Source: Echinarachnius parma (lineage: Eukaryota; Echinodermata; Echinoidea; Clypeasteroida; Echinarachniidae). Taken from it: 64,000 bases of DNA. The translations under genes were made by a program, and so were the position numbers. Below the pieces are notes generated by a model. It had not been told where the DNA came from. It worked only from the letters and a program-made list of their open reading frames with translations, and made no database searches. Of this stretch, positions 11,759 through 11,804 are shown piece after piece; the first letter of the stretch is position 1, and every line of letters starts with the position of its first letter. The stretch covers positions 1 through 64,000 of the forward strand of contig JBAMJV010002968.1 of assembly GCA_037951105.1 (NCBI GenBank), read 5' to 3'.

Positions 11759-11804
11759 TAACTCAGGTGAGCGCTACGCTGTAGCGTAGCGCTCACCTGA
11801 GTTA
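11759..11804. mobile_element. 46-bp minimal foldback element with 9-bp TSD
   Basis: TAACTCAGGTGAGCGCTACG, a six-base loop, and its exact inverse. It is flanked by a perfect direct repeat AGACCATAT (11750-11758 and 11805-11813). The ends are the same as those of the 624-bp element at 12083-12706. It sits just downstream of the LINE remnant. Confidence 0.9.

Follow-up and report, generated by a model that had tools for sequence, protein, structure and literature searches.

A 46-bp insert in Echinarachnius parma read as the collapsed form of a foldback element of about 620 bp

The window analysed here, a stretch of 64,000 nucleotides of Echinarachnius parma DNA, carries a 46-bp insert between two copies of an exact 9-bp repeat. 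We read this insert as the remnant of a type-A foldback element of about 620 bp, whose interior would have been lost after it had inserted and made the 9-bp duplication; we place the probability of this reading at about 0.7. We infer that this and similar short forms elsewhere in the genome are collapsed elements, comparable to solo LTRs, which arose repeatedly through annealing or slippage at a subterminal hairpin. Because the target-site duplication would be retained after collapse, the product would mimic an ultra-short transposon. The sequence searched was a genome of 1.2 Gb in 14,790 contigs.

The insert and its neighbourhood

The features of the insert and of a full-length neighbour are given below by position in the window; all are unstranded.

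11750 to 11758: left 9-bp target-site duplication AGACCATAT of the insert, an exact repeat, present as a single copy with one base different in contig C2470
11759 to 11804: 46-bp collapsed element, type A, with 21-bp arms and a 4-base loop (end-pattern scan, repeat comparison, folding)
11768 to 11795: sole remaining subterminal palindrome, 28 bp, with two 13-bp arms (type-A 13-mers at element positions 10 to 22 and 25 to 37)
11805 to 11813: right 9-bp target-site duplication AGACCATAT, an exact repeat
12074 to 12082: left 9-bp duplication TCAAGGATT of the 624-bp element, an exact repeat
12083 to 12706: full-length type-B palindromic (foldback) element, 624 bp, matched by its own reverse complement over positions 1 to 624 at 91%
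12092 to 12120: left subterminal palindrome of the 624-bp element, which folds as a 13-bp hairpin (direct-repeat computation, folding)
12669 to 12697: right subterminal palindrome of the 624-bp element, repeating the left one in direct orientation at a spacing of 577 bp (computed on L040, which is 100% identical to the window copy)
12707 to 12715: right 9-bp duplication TCAAGGATT of the 624-bp element, an exact repeat

The insert is a near-perfect palindrome, with 44 of its 46 positions computed to be self-complementary. Its folding energy is -26.6 kcal/mol, compared with a mean of -6.4 for shuffled sequences. The window holds four occurrences of the 17-bp end motif with at most 3 mismatches, where shuffled sequences have 0.03 on average.

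The original prediction was right about the coordinates, the length and the perfect 9-bp direct repeat. It described the insert as the two 20-bp ends of the 624-bp neighbour around a six-base loop, a description that needs revision, as folding gives 21-bp arms and a 4-base loop, and only the outer 19 bp of each end match the type-B neighbour. Compared with L022, a type-A copy of 622 bp, the 46-mer matches over 22 bases from its start and 37 from its end, with an overlap of 13. The insert is therefore not simply the two ends of its neighbour, and is better read from this alignment as one whole 37-bp end plus 9 bp from the other end.

Another contig, C2470, is collinear with the window, with 99.3% identity over 1562 bp in the left flank and further blocks of 95.6-99.6%. 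It contains neither the 46-bp nor the 624-bp element, and the target of the 46-bp element is present there in a single copy, one base off the duplication. Both elements are thus insertions that differ between the contigs, which look like two alleles. On one contig 278 bp separate the collapsed type-A insertion from the full-length type-B one; the contig that looks allelic is empty for both.

Full-length elements and their direct repeats

The full-length elements belong to two types, A (about 622 bp) and B (about 624 bp). Every full-length end has TAACTCAGG followed by a palindrome of 28-29 bp, which begins 9 bp inside the end and in type B folds as a 13-bp hairpin. The exact end occurs 160 times in the genome (75 forward, 85 reverse). 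Among the 100 of these that were listed, 29 are of type A and 71 of type B; they form 39 pairs, 36 at 609-630 bp and three at 1340-1502 bp, and leave 22 ends unpaired.

Thirteen of the 22 unpaired ends were inspected in short fetches and sorted by eye and with BLAST. In five the other end is present but carries base changes or a small insertion (L073, L075, L076, L079, L082). In two otherwise long copies (L072, L074) a deletion has removed much of the subterminal palindrome at the other end, with a few adjacent bases, and L080 has its arm cut at a point further in. Two reach the end of their contig (L081, L083), and the interior of the remaining three (L071, L077, L078) does not resemble the 622-bp element. 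A variant of the type-B centre is present in L072-L076, L079, L080 and L083, where the match to the 624-bp copy ends near position 251 and the middle is different.

The full-length elements have the features of a non-autonomous DNA transposon with terminal inverted repeats, as in MITEs: inverted termini, a target-site duplication of fixed length and dispersed, nearly identical copies. Identity to the window copy of 624 bp is 97-100% among the 40 of 1100 candidates that were scored, so those 40 copies, at least, are young. Every locus for which both ends were found has a duplication of exactly 9 bp; L035 has one end only and was excluded from sizes and duplications, L002 and L003 (the empty contig) have none, and repeat fetches of a locus were counted once. 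The 57 duplications collected (8 from short and 49 from longer copies) are all different, with a weak preference for G as the first base and C as the last.

Since the subterminal palindrome lies within an inverted repeat, the copies at the two ends also form a direct repeat. Exact direct repeats of at least 10 bp between the two halves were computed on one representative copy of each type, and the only ones are two 13-mers, spaced at 576 bp in type A (L022) and 577 bp in type B (L040). Deletion between these repeats is predicted to give products of 46 bp (622 - 576) for type A and 47 bp (624 - 577) for type B.

Short forms and their origin

A single genome-wide pattern scan for both 14-bp ends separated by 4-34 bases returned 11 loci (22 rows, counting both strands), and control patterns returned none. 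All 11 are flanked by exact 9-bp repeats. Comparison of the flanks pairs six loci into three sites (L009/L012, L013/L015 and L017/L019), which leaves eight independent sites; the window copy, whose uniqueness would have told against movement, is thus not unique. The element is 47 bp at four sites and 46, 54, 61 and 43 bp at one each.

The eight short sites carry eight different exact 9-bp duplications. It had been proposed that many independent 46-bp copies with different duplications would prove movement at this size; the different duplications are there, and a single site is of 46 bp while four are of 47 bp. Such copies fail to separate the two models, because full-length copies also have their own duplications, which survive internal deletion.

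The predicted sizes are found at five of the eight sites, comprising one type-A form of 46 bp and four type-B forms of 47 bp. The structure of these five sites is the one expected of a deletion between direct repeats in the ends with the duplication kept, as in the deletions that produce solo elements. The difference of one base between the subfamilies is reproduced in the short forms, type A being represented by one site. The ratio of type A to type B is 2:6 in the short sites and 18:43 in the listed full-length elements, in which no difference was detected.

The remaining three sizes, each found at one site only, make no use of the 13-bp repeats. The 54-bp junction joins 24 and 31 bases of type A with 1 bp of overlap, the 61-bp junction joins 29 and 29 bases of type B around a 3-base filler (CTG), and the 43-bp junction joins 16 and 28 bases of type B with 1 bp of overlap. 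In the orientation of L009, L010 and L016 their breakpoints fall 16-29 bases from the left end and 28-31 from the right, inside the same palindrome. Judged by their sequence, these junctions look like the products of end joining. Each is found at a single site, which is more in keeping with repeated formation than with one short form having been amplified.

A scan of the genome for elements of 64-124 bp whose outer 14 bases are intact on both sides gave no match. The scans for short forms covered elements with 14 intact bases per end, which in itself accounts in part for the outward confinement of the breakpoints. Sizes of 63 bp and from 125 to about 600 bp were covered by the paired ends among the 100 listed of the 160 full-length ends. 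The original prediction had offered both mobilisation at 46 bp and internal deletion after insertion. The predicted sizes in two subfamilies, the private junctions at three sites and the lack of forms of 64-124 bp together favour the second, and mobilisation is not the best reading.

In the proposed mechanism, synthesis would stall at the subterminal hairpin, either in abortive gap repair after excision or in replication of the long palindrome. The ends could then pair through the shared palindrome, giving the 46- and 47-bp forms, or be joined with little or no homology, giving those of 54, 61 and 43 bp. Abortive gap repair would account for both kinds of junction in the same place, and simple slippage for the 13-bp ones. 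A polymerase has been shown in vitro to slip where its template holds a hairpin and short direct repeats (PMC4134008).

The main alternative is that the 46-47-bp form itself transposes, as an extremely small transposon with about 20 bp per end, in which one palindrome serves as the inner part of both ends and which the family transposase of an unseen partner moves in trans. We consider this unlikely, though it has several observations on its side. The eight different duplications would be expected of it, as would the identical 47-bp form at four unrelated sites, which is equally the predicted product of recurrent deletion. The six 47-bp loci have no mismatches between them, and a mismatch scan made for the 47-bp form found no relatives with 1-3 mismatches, as for a young mobile form. 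In Paramecium the internal eliminated sequences (IESs) are at least 26 bp long, with sizes that peak at 26-28 and 45-46 bp (PMC3464196), so very short units can be excised. Against mobility, the sizes that recur agree exactly with the prediction from the direct repeats in the two subfamilies, and the other three structures never recur. DNA this short is also stiff, with a persistence length of about 150 bp (PMC3464196), and the shortest amplified elements that we met in the literature are the Bari MITEs of 77-78 bp (PMC4877112).

The states of the second contig bear on the same question. Three of the eight short sites are short on both contigs, two have an empty counterpart (the window site and L018, whose counterpart C5525 is 98% identical over 200 bp) and three were found on their own contig only, among the 40 of 930 candidates that were scored; most of these 40 were matches to a repeat in the flank of L011. 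The two sites with short and empty states count for mobility, in that they need one event if the short form moved and two if a full-length element inserted and then collapsed. None of the five short sites that have a second contig shows a full-length allele beside the short one, so deletion in place is what we infer and neither model is proven.

At the 624-bp site in the window the states are full and empty. Matches at the L055 and L032 sites were rejected as alleles in two comparisons of 17 full-length sites each, and so were insert-free matches at the L005 (85-94%) and L040 (87-89%) sites in a comparison of seven; all proved to be repeats. Pairing of site with site is seen for three of the eight short sites and none of 49 longer copies (47 of 608-630 bp, with L034 and L020; Fisher p = 0.002). 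We give this result little weight, because similarity was the basis on which the 49 copies were picked out of the family, and a redundant contig may underlie one short pair. Six pairs among the 49 have repeated flanking DNA in common.

A quite improbable alternative is an artefact of the library or the assembly, in which an insert that is really full length would have been shortened by a jump from end to end during sequencing or assembly. Long palindromes are hard to sequence, and L017 and L019 differ by no mismatch and one gap over 3006 bp, so that this pair may come from a redundant contig. The authors of the Paramecium study had the same worry about solo TIRs, and their PCR gave it no support (PMC3464196). 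In the present assembly the private 54-bp form is found on two contigs (L009/L012) with 8 mismatches and 8 gaps between them over 3065 bp, and L013/L015 differ by 2 mismatches and 9 gaps over 1612 bp; with such base changes and gaps between their contigs, each of these two pairs looks like two haplotypes. Junctions that contain filler are not short cuts in an assembly graph, and 160 intact full-length ends are present in the same assembly. Repeats of 13 bp are, moreover, below the usual overlap length of assemblers.

It is hardly credible that the short forms are excision footprints, 43-61 bp of both ends left by simple end joining with no role for the palindrome: the three junctions with 1 bp of overlap or filler would suit this, and excision of Muta1 in yeast from donors lacking a duplication occasionally left up to 13 bp of an end (PMC5225508), but five of the eight sites hold the exact product of the 13-bp repeats, and the remnants are longer than those reported and keep both ends to the last base.

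Transposase and related systems

The family shares a duplication in the range of 8-10 bp and long terminal inverted repeats with the Mutator-like (MULE)/Foldback elements as defined in PMC5225508. A search for a MULE transposase gave 24 matches to PF10551, none of them on the contigs of the 100 listed ends (of 160) or of the listed copies resembling the 624-bp element. As these matches link no transposase to it, the family is not filed as MULE despite its 9-bp duplication and long palindromic ends.

A family copy of 6331 bp with a 9-bp duplication (L020:745-7075, G000:C5654) is interrupted by other inserts, including a reverse transcriptase frame (PF00078). It was considered as an autonomous partner and rejected, as L020:1588-3207, with a frame of 257 amino acids, is 97% identical to part of L070, of which the 6401 bases analysed lack the family ends. 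We read the L020 interior, from this similarity, as a different transposon nested in a family copy. L070 has an open frame of 1510 amino acids on the minus strand (L070:1389-5921, G000:C10150) with no Pfam family, the C-terminal part of which has 191 matches in the genome. Its 'TGCDT' motif and cysteine-rich tail may point to an XPG-like nuclease ending in a CXC tail, a combination found in Academ transposons. In L084-L086, which cover three ends with an interior unlike the 622-bp element, no recognisable transposase was seen among frames judged by eye.

The window itself contains two open frames at 7411 to 8668 on the minus strand. The first matches Helicase_C (PF00271), appears RecQ-like by eye and has a long serine-lysine-proline repeat, and the second has no Pfam match. 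A partial reverse transcriptase (PF00078) is found at 14932 to 15486, also on the minus strand.

The closest published idea that we found concerns the solo TIRs of the Tc1/mariner element Thon in Paramecium, for which the authors speculate that short direct repeats in palindromic ends recombine and delete the interior, as in solo LTRs (PMC3464196). The two systems have in common long palindromic ends and a proposed deletion of the interior between short direct repeats. The Thon products are IESs of 512-770 bp (PMC3464196), whereas the present ones are of 43-61 bp with 9-bp duplications. The present family goes beyond this with sizes predicted to the exact base for two subfamilies, with 9-bp duplications and with products that are much shorter.

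The Mutator/Foldback element Tm1 (PMC3169594) and the MULE Muta1 (PMC5225508) also have long inverted repeats, non-autonomous short forms, duplications mostly of 8-10 bp and no strong target preference. The present family differs in that no MULE transposase is linked to it among the contigs listed, and Tm1 measures 0.17-2.5 kb (PMC3169594). Galileo of Drosophila mojavensis is foldback-like and includes copies reduced to two TIRs or to one; unlike the present family it belongs to the P superfamily, makes 7-bp duplications and has a wide range of lengths in place of one sharp product (PMC3573991). The Bari MITEs (77-78 bp) are likewise very short and two-ended, and their deletions seem to lie at the same point beside subterminal direct repeats (PMC4877112). 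In contrast to the short forms described here, they belong to Tc1-mariner and some have 24-37 copies and so appear to move, and the account of them in PMC4877112 describes no direct repeat made by a palindrome.

No report of such quantised collapse was found in searches of an open-access library. The exact 14-bp end occurs there once, in a paper on the mitochondrial phosphate carrier, which was taken as coincidence.

If our reading is right, the palindrome inside each end has a second role as a direct repeat and in this way sets the point at which a foldback element breaks down. An element of about 620 bp would thereby be turned into a quantised scar of 46 or 47 bp that retains both ends and the target duplication. 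Such scars could be mistaken for extremely small transposons, and would provide a natural set for the study of hairpin-driven deletion and of the lower size limit of transposition.
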